From Tetraselmis striata (taxonomy: Eukaryota; Chlorophyta; Chlorodendrophyceae; Chlorodendrales; Chlorodendraceae), in assembly GCA_006384855.1 (NCBI GenBank), contig VCJN01002642.1, forward strand, positions 62,001-126,000: a stretch of 64,000 bases of DNA. The letters run 5' to 3'. Positions 46,553-64,000 of the stretch are shown in pieces (position 1 is the stretch's first letter; every line of letters starts with the position of its first letter). A model generated the notes under the pieces. It searched no databases, had not been told where the DNA came from, and was given only the letters and a program-made list of their open reading frames with translations. Position numbers and translations under genes: made by a program.

Positions 46553-47884
46553 TTATGGGCGCACAGGCAACAGTGCGGCGGCATTGGCTTGCCTCGTCAC
46601 AAAGTCGACGAGGGGCGACAGCGCCCCCGTCAGGCACGCAGCGGCCTCCGGCCGGCCCGCCTCCCGCACGAAGAGCGCCACCGCCTCCAGCGTGCTCAGG
46701 CGTCCGCGCCCCTGCCCAGGTTTCAGCGCCTCGATGAGCGGCGACACGTGCGCCGCCACGGCGGCCTCCTGCAGCGCCACGCAGGGCAGGCTGCCTGCTT
46801 CGTCGCCGCGTCCGCTCAGCAGCTGTGCGCGCCGGGGCTGCAGGTGGTCCACCAGTGCCCGCGCGCACGCCCATGAGCCGTCAGGGACGACAACTACCGT
46901 CTTCCGCGAGTCATTGGCGTCGACATTGATGCTGCTGCCATCGGCAGGGGCAAGCGCCTCGGCCACGGACAAGCTTGGGGCGTTGTGGGGACAATCGGGG
47001 GAGGTGTCGTATACTGTTTTATCATTGGCGCCGTTGTCACCAGGTTGTGCTGACGGCTCGGCGGCCGCTGGGCTGCGTCGAGGGAAGAGGAGGACAGTCC
47101 GACTCGCAGCGTGCCCCCGGAGCAGCTCGTCGAGCCTGGTCTCGTGCGCCGAGCTGCCCAGCACCAGCAGCTCCGCCGATAGGCCCGCGGCGTCAAGCGC
47201 CTCGAGGTACGGAACGGCGACTCGGGTCGACGAGGTCGAGCGCAGGAACTCGGTCGGGTGGGAGAGCAGCACAAAGTGCAGCGCGAGTGCGGCGCCCGGT
47301 GCCCGCGCCGACTCGCCCAGCACGAGACATCGTTGTCGCAACGCCGCGCAGAAACACTCCCCTGCCGGCGTCCAGCAATATCGGCACCACCCGGAGCTCC
47401 GCGCCTCGGCACAGGCCGCCGACACGGTCGCCGCAGCCGCGTCGAGCAGCGCGTCGCCGGTTGGTTCGCCTCGTTGGATTCTGGCCGCGTCTCTGGTCGA
47501 CTCGACAAACAGGTCGTCCACCGTCTGCCGGTACGAGCTGGGGCGATCGGGGCCGTCGAGGTGGGAGGCGGGACTCGGTGCGGCTCTGAGCTCGGTGGAA
47601 GTGGCCGGCTTGGCGGCGACGAACCGCGTGAGGCGCGCGCGGCCGCGGTGGAACGCGCCCTCCCGCAGCACCACCTCCACTTCCTCGCCCACCTTCACCT
47701 CCAGCCCCTCGAAGTCCGCCGCCAGCTCCTGCCAGCTCACCAGGCACTCGGCGGATGGCCCGGGGCACCACGGCAGCTGTCTCTCTTTGCCATCAGCGCC
47801 GTCGGCAACGCTCGCCTCGCCACAAGGATGCCGCCCCTCCGCCGCTGCCGCCGCTTCCCCGCGCTGACGCGCCTGTCGGATCAC
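46553..47884 (-). CDS. DTW-domain tRNA-uridine aminocarboxypropyltransferase
   Basis: Transfers the 3-amino-3-carboxypropyl group from S-adenosylmethionine to uridine in tRNA (acp3U; TapT/DTWD1/DTWD2 family). The frame of 443 codons is uninterrupted. Landmarks: zinc-type cysteines CRYC (167-170) and CFC (177-179), LLSHPTEF (206-213), TVLLFPR (263-269), the signature VVVPDGSWACARAL with DGSW at 335-338 (a Ser variant of the DTW/DGTW motif), and STLEAVALFV near the end. A further 100 residues precede the domain (ADFEGLEVKVGEEVEVVLRE) and are not part of bacterial TapT. The open frame begins GTG with no ATG, so translation probably starts in an upstream exon; CCGACAG at 47873 is a possible acceptor. 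Confidence 0.8.
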   Translation of the reverse strand: MIRQARQRGEAAAAAEGRHPCGEASVADGADGKERQLPWCPGPSAECLVSWQELAADFEGLEVKVGEEVEVVLREGAFHRGRARLTRFVAAKPATSTELRAAPSPASHLDGPDRPSSYRQTVDDLFVESTRDAARIQRGEPTGDALLDAAAATVSAACAEARSSGWCRYCWTPAGECFCAALRQRCLVLGESARAPGAALALHFVLLSHPTEFLRSTSSTRVAVPYLEALDAAGLSAELLVLGSSAHETRLDELLRGHAASRTVLLFPRRSPAAAEPSAQPGDNGANDKTVYDTSPDCPHNAPSLSVAEALAPADGSSINVDANDSRKTVVVVPDGSWACARALVDHLQPRRAQLLSGRGDEAGSLPCVALQEAAVAAHVSPLIEALKPGQGRGRLSTLEAVALFVREAGRPEAAACLTGALSPLVDFVTRQANAAALLPVRP

Positions 47885-48270
47885 GCCACCTTATCTTCCC
47901 GCGCGTTGCACACTTCGCGGCCTCAGGATCGAAGCATGTATACGTCACGCGGCGGGGCTACCAGGGTGACACTGCCGACGGTAGCGAGCTGCACGTGGTG
48001 TCGCTGGGCTGCGATGTGTTAGAGCATACAAGGACATATTAATCGATGCTGTATATAATCGGGTAATGTTGCGGATAAACCCGCTGAATGACACATCAAT
48101 GTCCATTGCCAGGTCTGCCTGTGTTTTCACTGACTAAGCTCGTCTAAGCGGGGGGTTTCGACAGCTCATCTATGCTACCCAGGAGAACGAAATAGTCAGC
48201 GAAAACAGTGACGTATCTAAACAGCTTTATCGGCCTTTAAAACCAGAGGGAAAGGCAGCCAGGGCCCCCA

Positions 48271-48291
48271 GGGGGGGGGGGGGGGGGGGGG
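48271..48291 (-). repeat. poly-C run after methyltransferase donor
   Basis: A run of about 21 C on the sense strand, directly after ACACAG then GTGCCCAC. It marks an intron start as elsewhere. Confidence 0.85.
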
Positions 48292-48298
48292 TGGGCAC

Positions 48299-48733
48299 CT
48301 GTGTGGGCGCAAAGCACTCGATGAGGACTGTCCCGCCAGGGCGCAGCGCAGCGGCGGCAGCTGCATGCAGGCGCTGTCGCGCAGGCGGCGGCAGCATGCA
48401 AAAGATGGAGACGACAGCGTCAAAGGCCGCCGGCTTGGGGCGCCAGGCGCCCCCCAGGTCGGCGCACTCGGTGGCCAGGGAGGCCGCCGCGTCGCGCTGC
48501 TTGGCTAGCCGGCGCGCCTTGGCGAGGCCCACGGAGGAGGCGTCCACCGCGAGGCAGCTGGCGCCCAGCTCTGCCGCGAGGTACACCGCGTTGCGGCCCT
48601 GCCCTTCGCCCAGGCACAGCACCCGAGCACCGGGTGCCAGGCGGTCTGGCGCCACGCTCGCCAGCCAAGCGCTAGGCGCCTTGCCGTAGGCCCACCCCTT
48701 GCGGTAGCGTGCGTTCCAGTCCACCCCCGCCGC
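48299..48733 (-). CDS. Class I SAM-dependent methyltransferase (TehB-like), 3' exon missing
   Basis: One exon of 145 codons, phase 0 at both ends, flanked by acceptor GTCGCGCAG and donor GTGCCCAC. It encodes WNARY and YGKAPSAWLAS, typical of TehB/UbiE-like enzymes. These are followed by SAM-binding motif I VLCLGEGQGRNAVYLA (Glu where LDLGCG-type enzymes have Cys), the acidic AVDAS, DLGG and FDAVVSIFCMLPP, then LRPGGTVLIECFAPTQ. The domain needs another 40-50 residues, but the 400 bases before the DTW gene contain no matching exon. The first exon is also uncertain: a short ATG frame at 48881-48780 is a weak candidate. The gene may be truncated. Substrate unknown. Confidence 0.65.
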
Positions 48734-49121
48734 CTGCGCGACAGCAGCCGTGGGCCCACCTCCAGTGTCACGCGACCCTCGTCAAGGTTTAGTGCATCGA
48801 ACACGGCGGTACACAAACGGCAGAGCAGCCTGTGATTGTGCACAGAGCGCCTCTCGCCCAATGTGGTCAATGACCCGGTGCATCTACTCGAGGTGTCCAA
48901 ATCCTCAGCAAGCAAGGCGTTTTTTCATACGCACGCAGCATTGCGTACTGGTCCGTGGACGAGCTAGATATTGGCCTGCGGCCCACTCACACGTCAGGTG
49001 AATGAACACATACCGGCCCATCGATATTCGGGGCTTACGTAACAGGTCCATCAGTCCCCATCAGGAGGAAAGTATTGCATGAACGAACCATCTACCAGCG
49101 CAGCAGCTCCGTCATGCTAAA

Positions 49122-50537
49122 TTAACGCGTTGCCATGTCCAAGCAACGGCCATTAGCTGTGCCGGTCAGATGCCCGGGGGACCCTGAAGTGGTCCACAAC
49201 GTCTCAGTCCGCACTCTGCAGGAGCGGGGAGAGTGGGAATGCGGCATTGCTGGTGAGCTGAGGCGGGGCCAGAGCGCAGGCCGGCGCGCCACCTTTGCCG
49301 GCGGCGAGTCCTCCACAAGCGGCACAAAGCGCACGGTCCGCAAGGCGCGGCGCTCGACGCCGCCGTCGCGGGCAGTCAGCAGCGCGAGCTCCTGGTTGCT
49401 CTGCCGCTCGCCCAGCGGGATGAGCAGCAGGCCGCCGGGGCGCAGCTGCGCCAGCAGCGCGGGCGGCACCTCCGCGGCGGCCGCGCCCACGTTGATGGCA
49501 TCGAAGGGGCCGAGGTCCGCGGCGCCCTGCCAGCCGTCTCCCTGCCGCACCTGCCGGCGCCACCAGACATGGCCTGTTCACCAGTTCCGGACCACTGCCC
49601 GCGTGCATCCATCGCCGCATAAGGGCCTTGTTGGTGCGTTCACCGGTTTAGGAGCCGACATTACGACCCGCCAGGTGTAAATAACTAATCACCCGCAGCA
49701 GTTTGCCTTAAAGCATTAAAGGACACTACTCTCCGCCTATGGGGCAGGACATAATGTTGCCTACAGTAAATTCAATGGCCACTTGATTTTACACAACGAC
49801 GATACGTTATATCATATGGTACAGCGTATGTATATTTGTGTGCATTTATGCATACATTCCGCCATACCGGGACGTGCGGGTATCTTGTATGCGTTCACCG
49901 CCGCACAGCATAGTCTTTCTCGCAATACGCCGTCAACAGCCCGGATGAGGAGGCCTAAGTGGCGCACCTCGATGCGGGCGTGCTGCCCATCCCTCGGGTC
50001 GTCCCCTACCGCAAAGCCATCTGCGCGCAGGTTCGCGGCGCTCTGCTCCGCCAGCCGCCCCACGATCTCCAGCCCCACCAGCGCGGCGCTCGCGGGGGCC
50101 ATGCGAGCCATGTAGGCCAGCAGGATGCCGGAGCCGCAGCCGACGTCGAGCACGCGGGCGCCGGGCGTGCGCAGGGCGCCGGCGAGGGCCTCCAGGCACG
50201 TGGCGTGGATGTGCGGCGCGGAGATGGTCACCTGCACAGCGGGCGCCTGGCTGTCAGGGGTGTGGAGCGCTCCGCCGGCGCAACTCCCTGCGCTGGGTCA
50301 GCCGGTCTGCACCTTGGAGCCGATGGACTGCGGCGCATCGGCGTATGGGCCGTACTGGTAGCCTCCGCGCCCTGCGGCAGCGGCCGCGCTGCCCGGGTCG
50401 CCCGGCGGGACGTACAGCGCGCGGTCGGTGGCGAGCATGGCGGCGCGCACCGCCGGAGTTGACACCAGCCCGGCGGCGGCGAGCCGGGCAACTAGCTCCT
50501 CATTGCTACCGCCGCTGCAGCCCGCTGTCCACGACAT
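49122..50537 (-). CDS. PCMT: Protein-L-isoaspartate O-methyltransferase
   Basis: Repairs age-damaged proteins by methylating isoaspartyl residues with SAM, in the cytosol or plastid. Three exons: 50537-50313, 50231-49968, 49550-49122; phases agree. Start ATG at 50537. Family motifs in order: NEELVARLAAAGLVSTPAVR, MLATDRALYVP, YADAPQSIGSK, TISAPHIHATCLEAL (spanning the first splice), motif I VLDVGCGSGILLAYMARM, GDGWQG, FDAINVGAAAAEVPPALLAQ, LRPGGLLLIPLG and RFVPLVE. Family members normally end about there (roughly 225 residues). Here about 60 more low-complexity residues follow, so a GTGGCGC donor after PPAK may end the real exon and the tail may not be coding. Confidence 0.9.
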
Positions 50538-51787
50538 CGCGCCGCACCCGCTCAAAACATCCGCACCCGTTTTGAGCGCCAGGTGTCTGCTGGCGAAGGT
50601 ACAAAGGCGCCGCCCTTTATCGCACCACGATAGCCACCGCAGCAGTGCTCATTGACGGCAGTGCGCGGGACGGTTACGGCAGGCAGCGGCGCAGCGCGGT
50701 GGGTGAAGGCGGCCAGTAGTGCGAGCGCTGACGCCCAGGCACTCACGAGAGTGGCGACTGAAGAGGTCAGTGTGGCGAGGAGGCATTTGGTGGTAGTCGT
50801 GCTGGATGTGGCAACTGCGGCGAGAAGCGACGACTGCTCCCTCGCTGGCTATCGCGGAGCCCGCTTTTTTATTAAATTAATCCTCTGCTGTAACAAGAGG
50901 CAGGAATAGAGAGGTTTAGGAGCATCCTTGCCACGAGTCACGCAGTCGCCCGTATTCACGCACGTGTTCTTTCGATTTATCGACGAGGGAGGAAAGTCGC
51001 GTGGTTTAGGAGCATTGCGGCGTTGCTGGGTGGTTTCGAAATGACGGCGGTGTCGGAGCACGCCGTGAAGGCCTACTACTCTACCCTTCCTGCCGGCGCT
51101 GACCAGTTGTGTGGAGGCCTGGAGGGTTTCAGGGTTGCGGATCCACGGCACCAATAAGCAAGGCGTGTGGAAATATTGACACCATCGACAAACATGGTTT
51201 CGGAGCGTTGTTGATGTGGTCTTGGAGCCTTTCGACTAATTTACTCAAATGCACCTCAGCACATTCAATAGGTGATTACTATGCCCTCGAACCGCCAAAA
51301 TCTCCGTGTAGGGCTATTCCGCTTTCTCTAAATTCCATACTCGTCATGGAGTGAGCAAATATATTCTACGATGTGGAGCGATAATGTTACCATTCCTATG
51401 AATGCAAAAACAGGTGAGTTCAAGATGACATGGCAGTCTTGCGTATCTGACCAGCTGCAGTAGCGCCAGCAAGGGAAAGGGCAGCCTGCTGGTGCAACTA
51501 TTCGGCCATCTGGTTTCCAAATTTGTCGCAACCTACCATCACAGTATGTATGACTGGCGACTTGTTGCCAACTACAAAATAGGGCGTATAACTTTAAGCA
51601 TGCCGATGCCACTTCTCACGAGCAAAATATGTCGTAACCATCGCTGGGTGCTTGCACCCTGGTGTGTTTGAGCAGTGGTCATGACAATATACATGTATCA
51701 GTATAATATGAGTGCTTGAAACATATTTACAGATACAGCATGGTTGTGAGGGTGACGCATTTCATGCAATCGTGACAGTGTTATGGA
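50538..51787. other. Spacer, nothing definite
   Basis: Between the 5' end of the isoaspartate methyltransferase gene and the 3' end of the DOMON gene. A TGTAA signal for the DOMON gene lies on the minus strand at 51727-51731. No open frame here resembles a protein. Confidence 0.5.
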
Positions 51788-54700
51788 TCACTGCTTGCCA
51801 GCAGGGCCCACTGACATCATAATGGTGGTTGAGTGGCTGCGTGTTTGTGCAGGCTTCGCGCCCATGCCGTCCTCATTGGGTATCTCTGCTGGGACAAGTA
51901 CTTTATCAGCTCCCTTTCCACCACCTGCCACCGCCTTGCGGATACGAGCGGCACGGATCTCCAGAGCTGCCCAGGCTAGCACATACACCACGAGCCAGAT
52001 AGCATAGACCACCACTGGCCATACGCTGGCGCAGGTGTCGCGCACGCGGAAGAGGACAATGCCGATCATGACGTTGGCCAGCCCACCGAGCCAAGCCACA
52101 CGTCCCGAGGTGAGGTGCAGCGCCTCCCACTGGCCGCGCCACTTGTCGCCCTTGTGCGGGCGCACCAGCGCGTTGATCGGCTGCAGAATGCCCAGGATCA
52201 TGACGATCATGCCGATGACAGCATGGCTGCTGGCCAGAGCACCGGAGTCGGGGCCCACGTTGAGCGGGCCCAGCTTGACAAGCGCGATGATCCAGGCCGC
52301 CAGAGCCGCGGCCACGCCGGCGTAGTTGAGGCCACGGTGGAGCTTGAACCAGGTGGGGTCCTGGTCGCGCATGGTGCGCGCGATGAGGACACCACAGGGT
52401 AGCAGCACGCCCCAGCCAGCCAGCATGAGCACGCCATGCACCACCCAGAAGTTCCAGTTGGGGGAGCGCGGCGGGCAGCTGCCTGCGGGAGCTTCGCCCA
52501 GGGCGGCCCAGGCAAAGCCCTGGTTGGTGCCCGGCGAGTGCTGCGCCGTGTGGACGCCACTGCCGACGTGGTACGCGGCCAGCAGGGTGCGTGCCCCCTC
52601 CAGCGGGAACTCCTCGCTCACTGAACGGGTGAACTCCACGATGGTGAAGCCGCCATCACGGCTGACAGCCAGGCTTGCGGGGTCGATGCCAGGAATGGTT
52701 GTCGCTGGCCAGCCACCGGCCGGCGGGCTGTATCCCGGCAGCATGTAGGTCTCCACACCCTGCTCGGGCGAGCCCATGACCACCATGGCGCCCCTCATGG
52801 CGGCGCCAGACGCTGGGAAGCCCAGCGCCACCCAGCCGGCGCTGGTGGCTGCCTCCGCCGCCATGCGCACCTCGCCGGCAGCGACATCGGGCGTCCAGTG
52901 CAGTGTGTAGCCGGTGTTGACGGCAAGCATGCAGTCGTATCCCGCCAGGGAGGACGGCGTGCAGGCGCCGCTGGCAGGGGGCATGAAGTTGACGCCACCG
53001 TAGGAGCCCCGGGAGTCGTAGTTGCCTGCAGAGGTGCCGCCGCCGTGGTAGAGCAGCGCATCAGGGCGGTAGAAGGCGGTGTTGGTGCCGGTGCCCGTCT
53101 CCAGCGAGGACGCGGGTGCGTGGAACACAGCGCCCGCGGGGCTGCTCTGCCCGTACGCGTACGCGAGGCGGTACAGCACGCCGCCCATCACGCAGTAGTC
53201 AAGGGCTGCATCGCCGCTCTCCAGAGGCTTGCGGAACTTGAGGAGCGTCAGGCGTCGACCGCCCTCAGGGCGCTGGTCAATCTCTGCGCCCACCGCATCC
53301 AGGATGTCATCGGTGCCGCCAAGCTCAAGGTCGGCGATGGGCCGGGAGCGGCTGGGCGTGAAGGCGTCGTAGACGCGGAAGGCACGGCCGATAGTAGCGC
53401 CAATGACGACGTCCAAGTTGATCATGGCATGTGCGCCAGAGGGCGTGAGCGGAGCGCCGCAGACACCATCTGCAGGCATGTACCCAGGCATCTCAAGATC
53501 GGCACCGGCCCCAGGCTCGCCTTCTGGCTCTCCCTCAGGCTCGGCCCCGGGCTCGGCTTCAGGCTCGGGCTCCGTCTCGGGTTCAGGCTCGGGCGAGGTC
53601 TGCGCCAGGCGGCGCCGCAGCAGCCGCCTGGAGCCAGTGTTGATGGCTGCTGCTGCCTCTGGTTGCAGGGCTGGCAGCGCCAGGATGCCCTGTCGGGGAA
53701 CCGCACATGTGTTGGATGCCTGGGAGCCAGGGAGGGCTTTACACGTTGAACGTGTAGCCGGTGCCGAGGGTTTGCCCTCGCCTTCAGGCTCTGTCTCGGG
53801 CTCGGGCTTGGTCTCGCCCTCAGGCTCCGCCTCAGGCTCTGTCTCAGCTTCTGGCTCAGGCTCTGTCTCGGGCTCGGGCTCGCCCTCAGGCTCTGCCTCG
53901 GGCTCTGTCTCAGCTTCTGGCTCAGGCTCTGTCTCGGGCTCGGGCTCTGTCTCCGGCGTAGGCTCGGGCTCGGTCTCGCCCTCAGGCTCTGTCTGGGGCT
54001 CTGTCTCAGGTTCTGGTTCTGTCTCCGGCTCGGGCTCAGTCTCACCCTCTGGCTCGGGCTCTGGAGCGCCATAATCACCTTCCGGGTCGGGCTCGGGAGA
54101 GCCGTGGCTCCCTTCTGTTCCAGGCTCAGGGGCGTCCTCGGCTTCAGGCTCAGCCTCTCCATTGCCTTCAGGCTCGGGCTCTGGAGCGCCGCTGGTAGCC
54201 TGCTCATTGGAAGATTCATTGCCGCCAATCAGGGCCTCGGGGCGCAGTGCAACAGACACCCATGCATCCGTGTCAGCGGCGATTGCATACTCGATGAAGC
54301 CGGCGTCAGTGTCGACTGTCCAGTAGACAGTATAGTTTCCGGTGGGTGTGGAGGTGCGCGAGTCGGTGTACTCATCCTCCCACGTGGCAGGGTCGCCCAG
54401 TGTCATGCTGGATTGGCGGTCACACATGCGCATGGCGAGGCCGCCCGGGGACTTCACTGCGTCGCCAAACCAGCCCTCATTGCAGAAGCACTGCTTGCGG
54501 GGCGCGGTGTCGGCCTGCGGGACGGGGCAGTCGAAAACGTTGTGTTAGCCCCACAGCAATATTGGCGGTACATTGGGAAATGGCCTCAAATGCTGTAGGC
54601 ACTTGGGGCCCAGTGATAATCAGTTGTATATTTTTCAAGCTTCAATGAATTGTGAACTATGAATTTCAAGGGCCGAAACCCTGCAATTGCTTGTGAATCG

Positions 54701-56118
54701 TGGATTTTATTATCCAGACATGACAACATAATGCAGATACAGGATTGCAACGGCCAGAGGTCTGCAAGCACCTCAATGTCCACACAGCTACCACCAAAGC
54801 CGCAGTGGCTGTCCTCTTCGCACTCGTTCTCTTTCTCGCAGTACTCACCATACCAAAAGCCAGTCTCAGGACTTGAGTCGCAATTACATTCACCCTACAG
54901 AATGCACAGGGAGTGGATTGTCAGACTTCATAGGAATTATATCGAATACGATGAAGCAGAATTATTGGTAGCACAGAGGCAACAGACCTTTATGATATCA
55001 AAATTACCAAAGTGCATCACTGCATGCAGAAGCATTTATAGCCGTACGGTCGATTCGATTCGCCGTACCTCAACACAGCTGCCGTGGCCCGAGCAGCCCT
55101 GGCACTCGTCAACGGTCCCAGTGATGCTCACGACCGCGCAGCTCCGAAATAGATATGCACCGCCCCACTCGAGCGCCTGACGGCGCAGGCGGAGTACGCA
55201 GCGCTCGCAGGTGACGTTCGCCGGTAGGGAGAGCGTCGCGGTGGTCTCTGTGCCGTCGACGCAGCCGAAGTTCTTCTCGCACAGCACGCGCTCTCCAAGT
55301 GCGCCATCGTCGTCGTTGACGCGGTAAAGCTCCAGCTCGTACCCGCCGTTGTGTGGATAGTGAAGGCTCCACTCCACCTCGACATCGGAACCGGCACGGA
55401 AGGTCGTCGCAATGGAGTGGTTCACGGCCGGGAGGCGCCAGAGGCTGGGCTCGGCGCCGCGGGAAGTAAAGCCGCAAAAGCCGGCGGTACGGGCGCTGTC
55501 AAGGAAATCTGCACGTCGCGGTCATGCCAGGGCGATTCTTGAGTCCGATGCGGCGAACTGCGAGAGCGGGCGGCTGCCGCGCGTCGTTTAAACAGCTAGG
55601 CCTATTGCTCGCTCCAAAGCGACGATGACGTAGTATCAGCTCATCAGAATAAACAGCAGTCGAGGCTCACACACCGGCAACGAGCCAGTAAGCGTCGTCG
55701 CCGAGGAAAATGCCACCGCCACCGCCATATGGGGTACGACAATAATTCGAGACTGCCAGTTAAGGGATATAATAAGGATGAGACTGCATGGACGAACAAA
55801 ATGGAGACTGAGTGAAGATGGCGGGCGAATAGTGGTGCCAGCGTCGCTCGCGGAAATACGCCATAATAAATAAGGGCATCTGCTCTACAATAGACGCAAC
55901 CATCCAGTGCGAAGAAGCATTCCGATGCGCGCGGTAGCCGATTTAATCGCGCGGTAGCTGAATATGCAGCATGGTGAAAGTATACAGTAGCACTCACCAA
56001 CGCGGGTTGCAGGACGTGGGTACTGCAGCGCGACGTGGGCATCCACTCCAGCATGCGCAGCGGCCAGTAGGACGAGCAGCACTTCTAGCCGTGCTCCGGT
56101 GCGGAGATTTAGGACCAT
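51788..56118 (-). CDS. LPMO-like / EGF / DOMON / cytochrome b561 fusion protein, copy A
   Basis: Four phase-consistent exons (56118-55998, 55508-55069, 54894-54772, 54514-51788) give 1136 residues. Residues 1-27 are a signal peptide ([12 protein letters not shown], cleavage predicted after VDA), leaving His28 at the mature N-terminus in [14 protein letters not shown]. The next 150 residues have GFCGF, a second His in [23 protein letters not shown] and [12 protein letters not shown], the pattern of histidine-brace copper proteins (LPMO/X325-like). EGF-like Cys repeats follow ([25 protein letters not shown]). Then the first half of a DOMON domain ([20 protein letters not shown]), a Glu/Pro repeat of about 230 residues, the second DOMON half, another DOMON, and a b561 domain with four candidate heme His ([26 protein letters not shown]) and five to six membrane helices. 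Role inferred: moving electrons across a membrane to an extracellular copper site. Confidence 0.8.
53500..54190 (-). repeat. Glu/Pro-rich coding repeat inserted in DOMON
   Basis: Dozens of GAG-CC(T/C)-GAG type codons encode (EPE)n stretches. They are interrupted by a conserved island with two Cys, [20 protein letters not shown] and RRRL. The tract separates the two halves of the first DOMON domain. The paralogous gene has a shorter and differently ordered version. Confidence 0.85.
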
Positions 56119-57439
56119 TGCGCTATGCCCCAGGTGCTGCCTAACATATAGAGCACTTTCCAACAGTTTCTCTCGCTGGCTTTACGACGGTGTTGATAGT
56201 CGCCATGTGCCGAAAAAGTGGATGTGTATAATATGTGTATGTTATTATGATATCGAGTAGGAAATACCTACATGTGATGGCGTAGTGATATGTGATGGCA
56301 TAGTGATGAACGAGGGGCCGCGGCTTAAGCGAGTGAGTAGAGCAGAGGGACGACGAGCACCCTGCTGGTACTACGATTCTGAGCTAGCCTGGCCGCGACG
56401 TCCCAGCTCTGGCCTTAGTAGTGGTGGCTGATGTGATCTGGGCTGGCGGCGTCGTGCCGTTACTGATAGTCCCTGTCCGTGCCGCTCCGACCGCTCCGGC
56501 GCTCCCACCGCTGCTGGGAGCTCCCGCCTGTGCCGCTCCCGCCGCTGCTGCCGCCTGGGACTGCCGCCAGCTCGTTGTGATGGTGAATATTACGTTATGC
56601 GACTGCCGGTAGTACTATTGCCAGTACAGTATATCGCGACTACCACATCATGGCGCGGGGATGATGATATCCCGCTCAGCGTGCTGGTACGGTATACAGC
56701 ACTGCTACAGGGTATCTCATACTAATACCGCATCAGCCAGGTCGTAGCACAATCCTTATATTAGTGGTCGTTACGGTATATCCACACATAATGATATATT
56801 TCTCGTACAGGTACCCGTTCGCCGTACAGGTATGGTATGCTCCCACAGTACTACCACCCGCGGGCGGCGGCGGTGGGCGCACGAGGCGGCGGTAACAGTA
56901 TTGATTATGGTCAGTCCTCAAGAGCACGAACAATCAGCTGATCAGGAGGGCCCTCACAATCACAGATTCTGAACATTGCATTAGTTACCGACAATCGACA
57001 ACTTCACATCATCGACAATTTGTCCATAGTCGCTATTAATAATATTATAGTGATGAAAACATATTTATGTTGTGGCGGTGTCGCATTCGATGACGCTAAC
57101 GGCCCACAGACATTTCAGATTGTCTGACATCGTGTTCAGATTGTTCAATACGGTGAACTGACAGCATATCAGTGACGTACGTGCTGCAACACGGGCGGTT
57201 TCGTGTAGTTTCATCAGTGTTGCCAGTTAATTTGATCTTTTATTACATCACGGCTTTCTCAAATGCGCACTACAAATAGAACTAACAGCAACTATGAAAG
57301 GTTGCCAGCAAAAGAGAGACATAAGCATGAAACCAAGGTCGAGCAGGAGGCCAGGGAGCCAAGAACCAAGGAGGAGCCAAGGGAACCACGAAGTCGCGAA
57401 GCTGCCAGGAACCAACGGGACCACCGCCCCGGGGTAGGC
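56119..57439. other. Left part of spacer between head-to-head paralogues
   Basis: Contains the promoter of copy A at its left edge. AT-richer, with many short words such as GTAGTACT and GCGACTACC. No coding signal. Confidence 0.4.
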
Positions 57440-60216: not shown

Positions 60217-63200
60217 ATGGCTCCCAAAGCCGCCGCTGCAGCGCTGCTAGCGCTGCTCGTCCTCGCCGGTCTCTTCCATGTAGATGCGCACGTCGCACTG
60301 CAATATCCACGCCCGGCGACCCGCATCGGTGAGTTTGGGGTGGGCCGCGCTTCTCCGCGTGTGCCACTGGCTAGCCGCAGTCTGGGTCATCTGTTGTTCT
60401 ATATAGCTCGCCGGGCTTCAGTTATGACATCTCCAGATCGTTGCATCTAGCCCATGACGAGCGGCGATGAGAGTACAGTACTGGGTTCAACCCCCTCCGC
60501 CCCCTGGGATTTGCCGCTCTTTCTGATCTTCAGTGATACCCTTGAGGTTATGGGTAGCGGCGTGCAAGCTCGCAGAGGGTCTCCGAACAGCAGCGGACCG
60601 GCGCGTGGAGGCAGGGCTCTCCCACCCCGGCTTTTAATATAATATATATATCGCGGGTAGTTCCGCGCGAATGTCCACCGCCGACTGTCGGTGTTGGCAA
60701 GCAGGCTCCACTGAGTGTCCCTTTACCACTCATCGCAGACTTTCTGGACAACGCCCGCACCGCCGGTTTCTGCGGTTTCGAAGCCCGTGGCGCGGAGCCC
60801 AGCCTCTGGCGCCTCCCGGCCGTGAACCACTCCGCCGCGACTACCCTCCGCGCCGGCTCCGACGTCGAGGTGGAGTGGAACCTTCACTATCCACACAACG
60901 GCGGGTACGAGCTGGAGCTGTACCGTGTCGGCGACGATGGCACACTCGGCGAGCGCGTGCTGTGCGAGAAGAACTTCGGCTGCGTCGACGGCACCGCAAT
61001 CACGGCCATGCTCTCCCTCCCGGCGAACGTCACCTGCGAGCGCTGCGTGCTCCGCCTCACCCGTCAGGCGCTCGAGTGGGGCGGCGGCTATCTCTTCCGA
61101 AGCTGCGCGGTCGTGAGCATCTCCGAAGCCATCGACGAGTGCCAGGGCTGCTCGGGCCACGGCACTTGCACACAGGTACAGTCCAGTCCAGTCGGTAGGG
61201 TGTGCGACACCACTACACATCATAAACGTGATATAGTAGTTTATAGTACACGCAGTTTAATAATGCGTACAGCGCGTACATGCGGTGTATATGTATTTTT
61301 GACTGCGACGAGGAAAGGCGCTTTCCATCGACAGGTTTGTCGTAACTGACAAACTGGGCACGTTACAGGGTGTGTGCCAATGCGACTCGAGTCCCGAGAC
61401 CGGCTTTTGGTACGGCCAGTACTGCGAGAAGGAGAACGAGTGCGAGGCGGACGGACACTGCGGCTCCGAGGGCCTTTGTTTGGATACGGAGGTGATTAGC
61501 CCATTCGCCTTTGCACCTATCATGATGCTTTCTGCACGCAACGTTGGGCTGTAATGACATATCAGTGCAATCTACCAATTTTCCAATTCACATGCTGGTC
61601 TACGGTGCCATTTCGCCATTTGTATTCATGAAATGTCCATGAAGCTGTGGTTTGGCGACAGTAATGCGAGGTTCATGAGGTGGCGTGTGCCCAACACGCT
61701 GGTAACTAACGAGACACACTGGTCCGCGCAGGCCGACACCGCGCCCCGCAAGCAGTGCTTCTGCCAATGAGGGCTGGTTTGGCGACGCAGTGAGGTCCCC
61801 GGGCGGCCTCGCCATGCGCATGTGTGACCGCCAATCTAGCATGACACTGGGCGACCCTGCCACGTGGGAGGACGAGTATGCCGACTCGCGCACCTCCACA
61901 CCCACTGGGAAACTACACCGTCTACTGGACAGTCGACACTGACGCCGGCTACATCGAGTACGCGATTGCGGCCGACACGGACGCATGGGTGTCTGTGGCT
62001 CTCCGCCCCGAGGCCCTGATTGGCGGCGATGACACTTCCGATGCTCAGACTACCGATGGCTCTGGTGAGCCTGAGCCAGAGGGTGAAGGCGAGCCCCGAG
62101 GCGGGAGGTGACTACGGCGCTCCTGAGCCGGAAGGCGAGGGCGCTCCTGAGCCGGAGGCGGAGGGTGACTACGGCGCCCCTGAGCCTGAGGGTGAGACGG
62201 AGCCCGAGCCTGCGGCGGGGGTTGACTACGACGCTTCCGAGCCAGAGCCTGAGGGGATACCGAGCCCGAGCCTGAAGCGGATGGTGACAATGGAGAACCT
62301 GAGCCAGAGGCTGAAACGGAGCCTGAGGGCGAGGGCGAACCCACAGCAACGGGTGCCACCTGCGATGCCTTCGCGGCTTCCCAGCCTTCCACCACCTGCA
62401 ATGTCCCCAGCAGTGGCGTCCTGGCGCTGCCAGCCCTGCAACCAGAGGCAGCAGCAGCCATCAACACTGGCTCCAGGCGGCTGCTGCGGCGCCGCCTGGC
62501 GCAGACCTCGCCCGAGCCTGAACCCGAGACAGAGCCCGGGCCTGAAGCCGAGCCCGAGGCCGAGCCTGAGGGAGAGCCAGAAGGCGAGCCTGGGGCCGGT
62601 GCAGATCTTGAGATGCCTGGGTACATGCCTGCAGATGGTGTCTGCGGCGCTCCGCTCACGCCCTCTGGCGCACATGCCATGATCAACCTGGACGTCGTCA
62701 TCGGCGCTACTATCGGCCGCACCTTCCGCGTCTACGACGCCTTCACGCCCAGCCGCTCCCGGCCCATCGCCGACCTTGAGCTTGGCGGCACCGATGACAT
62801 CCTGGATGCGGTGGGCGCAGAGATTGACCAGCGCCCTGAGGGCGGTCGACGCCTGACGCTCCTCAAGTTCCGCAAGCCTCTGGAGAGCGGCGATGCAGCC
62901 CTTGACTACTGCGTGATGGGCGGCGTGCTGTACCGCCTCGCGTACGCGTACGGGCAGAGCAGCCCCGCGGGCGCTGTGTTCCACGCACCCGCGTCCTCGC
63001 TGGAGACGGGCACCGGCACCAACACCGCCTTCTACCGCCCTGATGCGCTGCTCTACCACGGCGGCGGCACCTCTGCAGGCAACTACGATTCCCGGGGCTC
63101 CTACGGTGGCGTCAACTTCATGCCCCCTGCCGGCGGCGCCTGCACGCCGTCCTCCCTGGCGGGATACGACTGCATGCTTGCAGTCAACACCGGCTACACA

Positions 63201-64000
63201 TTGCACTGGACGCCCGATGTCGCTGCCGGCGAGGTGCGCATGGCGGCGGAGGCAGCCACCAGCGCCGGCTGGGTGGCGCTGGGCTTCCCAGCGTCTGGCG
63301 CCGCCATGAGGGGCGCCATGGTGGTCATGGGCTCGCCCGAGCAGGGTGTGGAGACCTACATGCTGCCGGGATACAGCCCGCCGGCCGGTGGCTGGCCTGC
63401 GACAACCATTCCTGGCATCGACCCCGCAAGCCTGGCTGTCAGTCGTGATGGCGGCTCCACCATCGTGGAGTTCACCCGTACAGTGAGCGAGGAGTTCCCG
63501 CTGGAGGGGCCACGCACCCTGCTGGCCGCGTACCACGTCGGCAGCGGCGTCCACACGGCGCAGCACTCGCCGGGCACCAACCAGGGCTTTGCCTGGGCCG
63601 CCCTGGGCGAAGCTCCCGCAGGCAGCTGCCCGCCGCGTTCCCCCAACTGGAACTTCTGGGTGGTGCATGGCGTGCTCATGCTGGCTGGCTGGGGCGTGCT
63701 GCTACCCTGTGGTGTCCTCATCGCGCGCACCATGCGCGACCAGGACCCCACCTGGTTCAAGCTTCACCGTGGCCTCAACTACGCCGGCGTGGCCGCGGCT
63801 CTGGCGGCCTGGATCATCGCGCTTGTCAAGCTGGGCCCGCTCAACGTGGGCCCCGACTCCGGTGCTCTGGCTAGCAGCCATGCTGTCATCGGCATGATCG
63901 TCATGATCCTGGGCGTTCTGCAGCCGATCAACGCGCTGGTGCGCCCGCACAAGGGCGACAAGTGGCGCGGCCAGTGGGAGGCGCTGCACCTCACCTCGGG
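60217..64000 (+). pseudogene. LPMO-like / EGF / DOMON / cytochrome b561 gene, copy B, frameshifted and cut by window end
   Basis: Same exon structure as copy A: 60217-60328, 60739-61175, 61369-61491, 61732 to beyond 64000. Exons 1-3 are intact: signal peptide (ALLALLVLAGLFHVDA), mature [14 protein letters not shown], second His in [15 protein letters not shown], all EGF-like cysteines. Exon 4 has at least four one-base indels relative to copy A: after CFC near 61770, at STPTG near 61907, at about 62094 in the acidic repeat, and at about 62257. Each breaks the frame. From about 62260 the correct frame stays open through both later DOMON parts and into the b561 helices at the window edge. Indels at short homopolymers could be assembly errors, so calling it a pseudogene is provisional. 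Confidence 0.65.

Follow-up and report, generated by a model that had tools for sequence, protein, structure and literature searches.

A predicted CYBDOM protein carrying a divergent LPMO-superfamily domain in the green alga Tetraselmis striata

Introduction

Lytic polysaccharide monooxygenases (LPMOs) normally rely on a soluble reductant or on a separate electron-donor enzyme. Among the CYBDOM proteins of Arabidopsis are HYP1 and CRR. HYP1, a DOMON-b561 protein, moves electrons of ascorbate through the membrane, and both ferric and cupric substrates are reduced by it (PMC10784544). In the AA15 enzyme TdAA15A copper is bound by His1 and His91, with Tyr184 in the axial position, and the extensions of AA15 proteins are mostly carbohydrate-binding modules (PMC5823890). 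A second-sphere motif, N/Q/E-x-F/Y, has been described for LPMOs by Voshol 2019 (PMC6950343), and the same paper gives one sentence to sequences with DOMON/EGF and LPMO_10 that branch off early in the tree of LPMO profiles. An electron-transfer or reductase role of histidine-brace proteins is a listed unknown (PMC10952591).

We have analyzed a stretch of 64,000 nucleotides of the green alga Tetraselmis striata (contig VCJN01002642.1, positions 62,001 to 126,000), called here the window. It holds a gene, gene A, whose predicted product joins in a single chain a secreted LPMO-like domain, EGF-like modules, two DOMON domains and a cytochrome b561, and also a paralogue of it, gene B. We describe the observed gene, its domain order, homologies and conserved residues, and weigh what the protein might do.

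Gene A and its DOMON-b561 chain

Gene A lies on the minus strand, with its ATG at 56118 and a stop codon that ends at 51788, the same limits that an earlier note on this DNA had given. It has four exons and three introns, all GT-AG, and the spliced translation is 1136 amino acids long. From the amino terminus the order is signal peptide, LPMO-like domain starting at His28, EGF-like modules, DOMON1 (split), DOMON2 and a five-helix b561 (Table 1). The motifs noticed earlier, VDA before His28, PHNGGY with His93 and the cysteines of TCERC, were all found in the spliced protein, together with another motif of ten residues. The earlier note had also placed two DOMONs and a b561 in the same chain, as the Pfam matches bear out, both models passing their cut-offs (DOMON with E 1.1e-19 and 71.3 bits against 32.7, b561 with 26.2 bits against 23). 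It overlooked the EGF-like modules, the head-to-head copy and a third copy of the gene. The span of residues 28-185 that it gave to the LPMO-like domain has to be shortened, because the domain stops near residue 169 and EGF-like modules follow. Every Pfam match of these modules was weak, below cut-off. A Pro/Glu-rich tract of ~230 residues, recognized by eye from the translation, interrupts DOMON1.

A chain with DOMON and b561 both above their Pfam cut-offs is a CYBDOM protein by its domain content, and its residues point the same way, with four histidines in b561 and a Met/His pair in DOMON as predicted heme ligands (the pair of DOMON1 being uncertain). The spacings of the b561 histidines were 33, 38 and 36 residues versus 34, 33 and 36 in HYP1, and Met801 and His887 of DOMON2 were 86 residues apart versus 84 (PMC10784544). 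Both DOMON2 residues also align with a paralogue on another contig (C1957). The electron chain through DOMON and b561 proposed in the earlier note is supported by these matches and by the HYP1-like ligand spacing; that this chain reaches the copper of the brace, we infer. When compared by sequence with solved structures, DOMON2 matched nothing but formate dehydrogenases (E 0.29 or worse), which we took as chance matches.

Table 1. Positions of gene A, its domains and candidate ligands, and of gene B, numbered along the window.
Feature	Position	Strand	Remarks
Gene A, exon 1	55998..56118	-	Predicted signal peptide, residues 1-27 ending VDA, then the 12-residue mature start
His28 codon	56037-56035	-	Exon 1 of gene A
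Gene A, exon 2	55069..55508	-	Remainder of LPMO-like domain, to ~residue 169 (55123); onset of first EGF-like module
His93 codon (second brace His)	55353-55351	-	In PHNGGY, exon 2
Axial Phe161 and Cys164	exon 2 of gene A	-	LPMO-like domain
Gene A, exon 3	54772..54894	-	EGF-like modules; PF23105 E 2.7e-5, under its cut-off
Gene A, exon 4	51788..54514	-	End of EGF-like region, DOMON1, Pro/Glu-rich insert, DOMON2, cytochrome b561, stop
DOMON1, first part	54209..54325	-	~Residues 292-330; approximate limits, by eye; one of three DOMON stretches in the Pfam scan
Pro/Glu-rich insert within DOMON1	53477..54187	-	~Residues 338-574, by eye
DOMON1, second part	53039..53473	-	PF03351 E 4.3e-10 with the insert left out; profile positions 40-124
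DOMON1, second part, candidate heme ligands	Met592, His693	-	Uncertain
DOMON2	52484..52936	-	Candidate heme ligands Met801 (52798-52796) and His887 (52540-52538)
Cytochrome b561	51944..52465	-	Five hydrophobic helices; His921, His954, His992, His1028
Gene B, paralogue head-to-head with gene A	60217..64000 in the window, stop at 64268 beyond it	+	Exons ~60217-60328, 60739-61175, 61369-61491, 61732 onward

Kinship of the amino-terminal domain with LPMOs

By its sequence, the amino-terminal domain is a true relative of the LPMO superfamily. The closest named family that we found is the uncharacterised SCE4755 family of NCBIfam (NF043005, "polysaccharide monooxygenase-like"), matched with E 8.2e-8 by gene A and 5.4e-8 by gene B, where the match spans from before the His to the end of the domain. 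The cut-off of this model, 75 bits, was not reached (32.4 for A and 33.0 for B); both domains are relatives of the family and not members of it. We built a family alignment of 32 rows, comprising A, B and 30 bacterial loci. A profile made with 20 of these rows (A, B and 18 bacterial) matched solved LPMOs of three families, namely AA15 (5msz, E 2.6e-10), AA9 (4b5q, E 7.2e-7) and AA13 (4opb, E 2.2e-5). With a profile of the 30 bacterial relatives, gene A scored 34.4 bits versus 10.5 for the best of 10,000 shuffles of its sequence (6,894 of them received a reported score), so that a chance likeness of the LPMO-like part is excluded.

The residues expected at the copper site are kept throughout the family. 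The second His was found in all 32 rows and the first in 31, the remaining row being without its start. The axial position was aromatic in every row (Tyr in 30, Phe in two). Cys114 and Cys117 (domain numbering) occur in 31 of 32 rows, and each of the four main cysteines in 31 or 32. Counting on the printed PDB alignments with TdAA15A (5msz), His93 aligns with His91 and Phe161 with Tyr184; the first His is not covered there, and its match comes solely from the SCE4755 model and from the bacterial rows. As the earlier note assumed, the mature protein likely begins at His28. Of the 30 bacterial rows, 29 have Ala or Gly just before the aligned His, and the other one lacks that end. The signal peptides of A and B differ and the 12-residue mature start is unchanged, and this abrupt onset of constant sequence at the His, after a variable stretch, supports the predicted cleavage.

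Copies of the gene in the Tetraselmis genome

Gene B repeats the exon layout of gene A, and the proteins of their LPMO-like exons are 86-87% identical. In its DOMON1 exon two +1 frameshift differences appear, near 61761 and 61903, and this copy may be broken or mis-assembled. A third copy, on contig C1603 of this genome (224 Mb, 2903 contigs), corresponds to positions 47718-57047 of the window with 96.3% identity along 9.4 kb. Against the gene A region the identity was 97.6%, the protein of the LPMO-like exon was 100% identical, and all four exons were open, exon 4 having no internal stop. Possibly C1603 carries the other allele. In the comparison of A with B, the LPMO-like exon had a ratio of nonsynonymous to synonymous change (dN/dS) of 0.18 with dS 0.46, indicative of purifying selection, and the DOMON-b561 part had dN/dS 0.36 with dS 0.08.

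One more weak match, on contig C1859, was rejected as a further copy. It covers only positions 80-130 of the query, contains a stop and no brace residue, and its E value was 6e-5 with the A/B profile and only 2.9 with the family profile. No LPMO-like domain turned up in the ~18 kb around each of two other DOMON matches (C1957 and C1116), themselves below the DOMON cut-off. Downstream of gene B, beyond the end of the window (66118-67500), there are reverse-transcriptase frames of retrotransposon type, read by eye from the translation.

Bacterial relatives

A first scan of bacterial genomes with a narrower query gave no relatives. A wider profile scan found one, and we then searched its phylum, that of a Myxococcales metagenome-assembled genome, where 30 of 195 genomes carried the family. 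Viral contigs had no relatives in two scans (with A and B as query and with an AA15-type domain), and two plasmid matches at E 5 or worse were discarded as chance. We compared the gene neighbourhoods of 21 bacterial loci, and no neighbour family appeared in three or more of them, although the simple open reading frame picker recovered the SCE4755 gene itself in only 16 of the 21 and neighbours may be missed. As no neighbour family recurs, these neighbourhoods give no indication of function, and our literature search gave no paper on the family. At one of the loci a small secreted CxxCH protein (L074:3855-4319), which we take to be cytochrome-P460-like, adjoins the SCE4755 gene, and at another (L073) there are CxxCH frames nearby, with no pattern across loci.

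Departures from canonical LPMOs

Several observations weigh against reading the domain as a canonical LPMO or the whole protein as an oxidase of polymers. The LPMO_10 model of Pfam was matched below its cut-off of 23 bits (20.9 for A and 21.1 for B, E 6e-4 to 9e-4). Gene A alone found the AA15 structure 5msz with E 0.0099 only, and A and B together with E 0.066. The N, Q or E expected two residues before the axial aromatic was found in none of the 32 family rows; the residue there was C in 15, D in 10, S in four, Y in two and A in one, and A and B have Y-L-F at this second-sphere/axial motif. Four residues before the second His the bacteria have Glu (29 rows) or Asp (one), and A and B have Leu. 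Two residues before the same His, A and B have Tyr, the place of Ala89 in TdAA15A. The domain is also short, with 142 amino acids versus a bacterial median of 153 (29 rows) and 184 in the AA15-type domain of this same genome, so that it may lack the flat face with which AA15 binds. The dS of 0.46 in the LPMO-like exon versus 0.08 in the DOMON-b561 part makes different histories or gene conversion possible. Besides, plant DOMON-b561 proteins are known as metal reductases, which fits copper handling equally well (PMC10784544).

Judged on these features, the domain of gene A is evidently not a canonical LPMO. In a Pfam scan of 20 family members, 18 matched LPMO_10 and nine, all among the 18 bacterial relatives scanned, the BIM1-like model of copper acquisition (PF20238), with best E 1.2e-9; A and B had no match to the latter listed at E up to 10. 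The family seems to be positioned between enzymes and copper carriers. Of the LPMO-like identity claimed in the earlier note, superfamily kinship and the two brace histidines stand, and the polysaccharide enzyme does not follow, given the second-sphere Tyr, the short domain, the LPMO_10 score under its cut-off and the BIM1-like matches among the SCE4755 relatives.

Proposed mechanism and alternatives

In the scheme that follows we infer metal loading, heme loading, the electron donor, the direction of transfer and the substrate. Cytosolic ascorbate, the presumed donor, would reduce the inner b561 heme (His954/His1028), and the electron would go on to the outer one (His921/His992), to the DOMON2 heme (Met801/His887) and possibly next to a DOMON1 heme. 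The final acceptor would be the copper coordinated by His28, at the amino terminus, and His93, with the Pro/Glu-rich insert and the EGF-like modules perhaps forming a flexible spacer or tether. Once reduced, the copper would most likely activate O2 or H2O2 and oxidise a wall or matrix polymer beside the plasma membrane. The different parts of this scheme do not deserve the same confidence. It is probable that a copper site of some kind outside the cell is fed with electrons. That its use is oxygen or peroxide chemistry on a nearby extracellular polymer is a tentative reading, with doubt slightly ahead of belief. Likewise, the assembled picture, a secreted and membrane-anchored redox chain in one polypeptide whose reduced copper oxidises such a polymer, falls a little short of an even balance. 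More doubtful is a fully self-powered copper oxygenase, in which cytosolic electrons would pass by the b561 and DOMON hemes to a brace copper that oxidises the wall or matrix of the cell itself, switched by the redox state of the cytosol.

The first alternative is the acquisition of copper (or iron). The brace would capture Cu(II) outside and the DOMON-b561 part would reduce it to Cu(I) for an importer, as in a BIM1/X325-like protein with a built-in cupric reductase. It draws on the matches of the BIM1-like model in nearly half of the scanned family members, on the missing second-sphere LPMO residue and on the reduction of cupric and ferric substrates by HYP1 (PMC10784544). Moreover, BIM1 works alongside the importer Ctr1 in the uptake of copper, and several X325 members had no observed degradation of polysaccharides (PMC7924993). 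However, A and B themselves lack the BIM1-like match and yet reach LPMO_10 at about 6e-4, and among solved proteins the best relative, an AA15 LPMO, is active (PMC5823890). We regard copper acquisition as possible, and on the whole we doubt it.

A non-catalytic module, binding sugar or serving adhesion, on an ordinary CYBDOM ferric reductase would suit the EGF-like modules and the long flexible insert, as in an adhesion-type surface protein, and several near-site residues of the bacterial family are indeed changed in A and B. The histidines would then be relics, but both of them and the axial aromatic are retained in A and B under apparent purifying selection, which makes this explanation improbable. 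Finally, that the LPMO-like and the DOMON-b561 exons are two genes joined by an artefact of the gene model is very improbable, in spite of exon joins predicted from genomic sequence and of the frameshift differences in gene B, since A and B are identical in order and exon layout, the C1603 copy retains its four exons with exon 4 uninterrupted, and the grouping of LPMO_10 with DOMON/EGF has been mentioned in print (PMC6950343).

If the electron-fed copper site is real, the covalent link of a brace copper to hemes that cross the membrane would couple copper chemistry outside the cell to the cell's own redox state. The fusion would make the question of electron transfer or reductase activity in histidine-brace proteins directly testable, and it is a functional hint for the bacterial SCE4755 family.

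Other observations in the genome

The same genome has several near-identical genes of canonical AA15-type LPMOs on contigs C384, C107, C630 and C1197 (L013-L020), clustered on C384 and C107. In another locus (L011:1429-3177) Cys-rich repeats come after an AA15-type domain, and a GH18 chitinase begins behind them (Pfam GH18 E 1e-26), an arrangement that suggests chitin use or remodelling in this alga. There were also 57 matches to light-harvesting chlorophyll a/b proteins; the two that were checked against solved structures were close to LHCII chains, which came after one LHCI chain. The matched entries belong largely to the green lineage, and we read the genome accordingly as that of a green alga.

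Comparison with known systems

We found no description of the LPMO-DOMON-b561 fusion, its parts or its function in the literature covered, with subscription papers and preprints outside this coverage. The branch mentioned by Voshol 2019 is apparently of the same architecture class as gene A, although that paper does not use the word b561 and gives neither sequence anatomy nor mechanism (PMC6950343). Among solved proteins the AA15 LPMOs are the best relative, with the second His and the axial position aligned, but they are longer, and the AA15 copies of this genome carry Glu two residues before the axial residue. BIM1/X325 proteins (PF20238) resemble gene A in being membrane-linked, LPMO-like brace proteins, with a model matched by part of the family and not by A or B. 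To our knowledge they have no hemes. BIM1 differs also in its anchor, glycosylphosphatidylinositol (PMC10952591).

The bacterial SCE4755 proteins share with gene A the short domain, the signal peptide followed by His, the Cys pair and the axial aromatic. Their second His is mostly in a motif of the HPGH type, a conserved Glu stands before it, and in 11 of the 12 proteins with a readable end a hydrophobic stretch and an Arg-rich tail come after the domain, the twelfth extending to the end of its locus. Where they could be read they had no DOMON or b561, whereas the algal domain, at 32-33 bits against the family cut-off of 75, is fused to EGF, DOMON and b561. With CYBDOM proteins such as HYP1 gene A shares the DOMON, the five-helix b561, the four heme histidines and the DOMON Met/His pair; HYP1 has one DOMON and one b561, and gene A has two DOMONs, EGF-like modules and a copper domain besides (PMC10784544). 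Gene A is best filed as a CYBDOM protein that carries a divergent copper domain of the LPMO superfamily.

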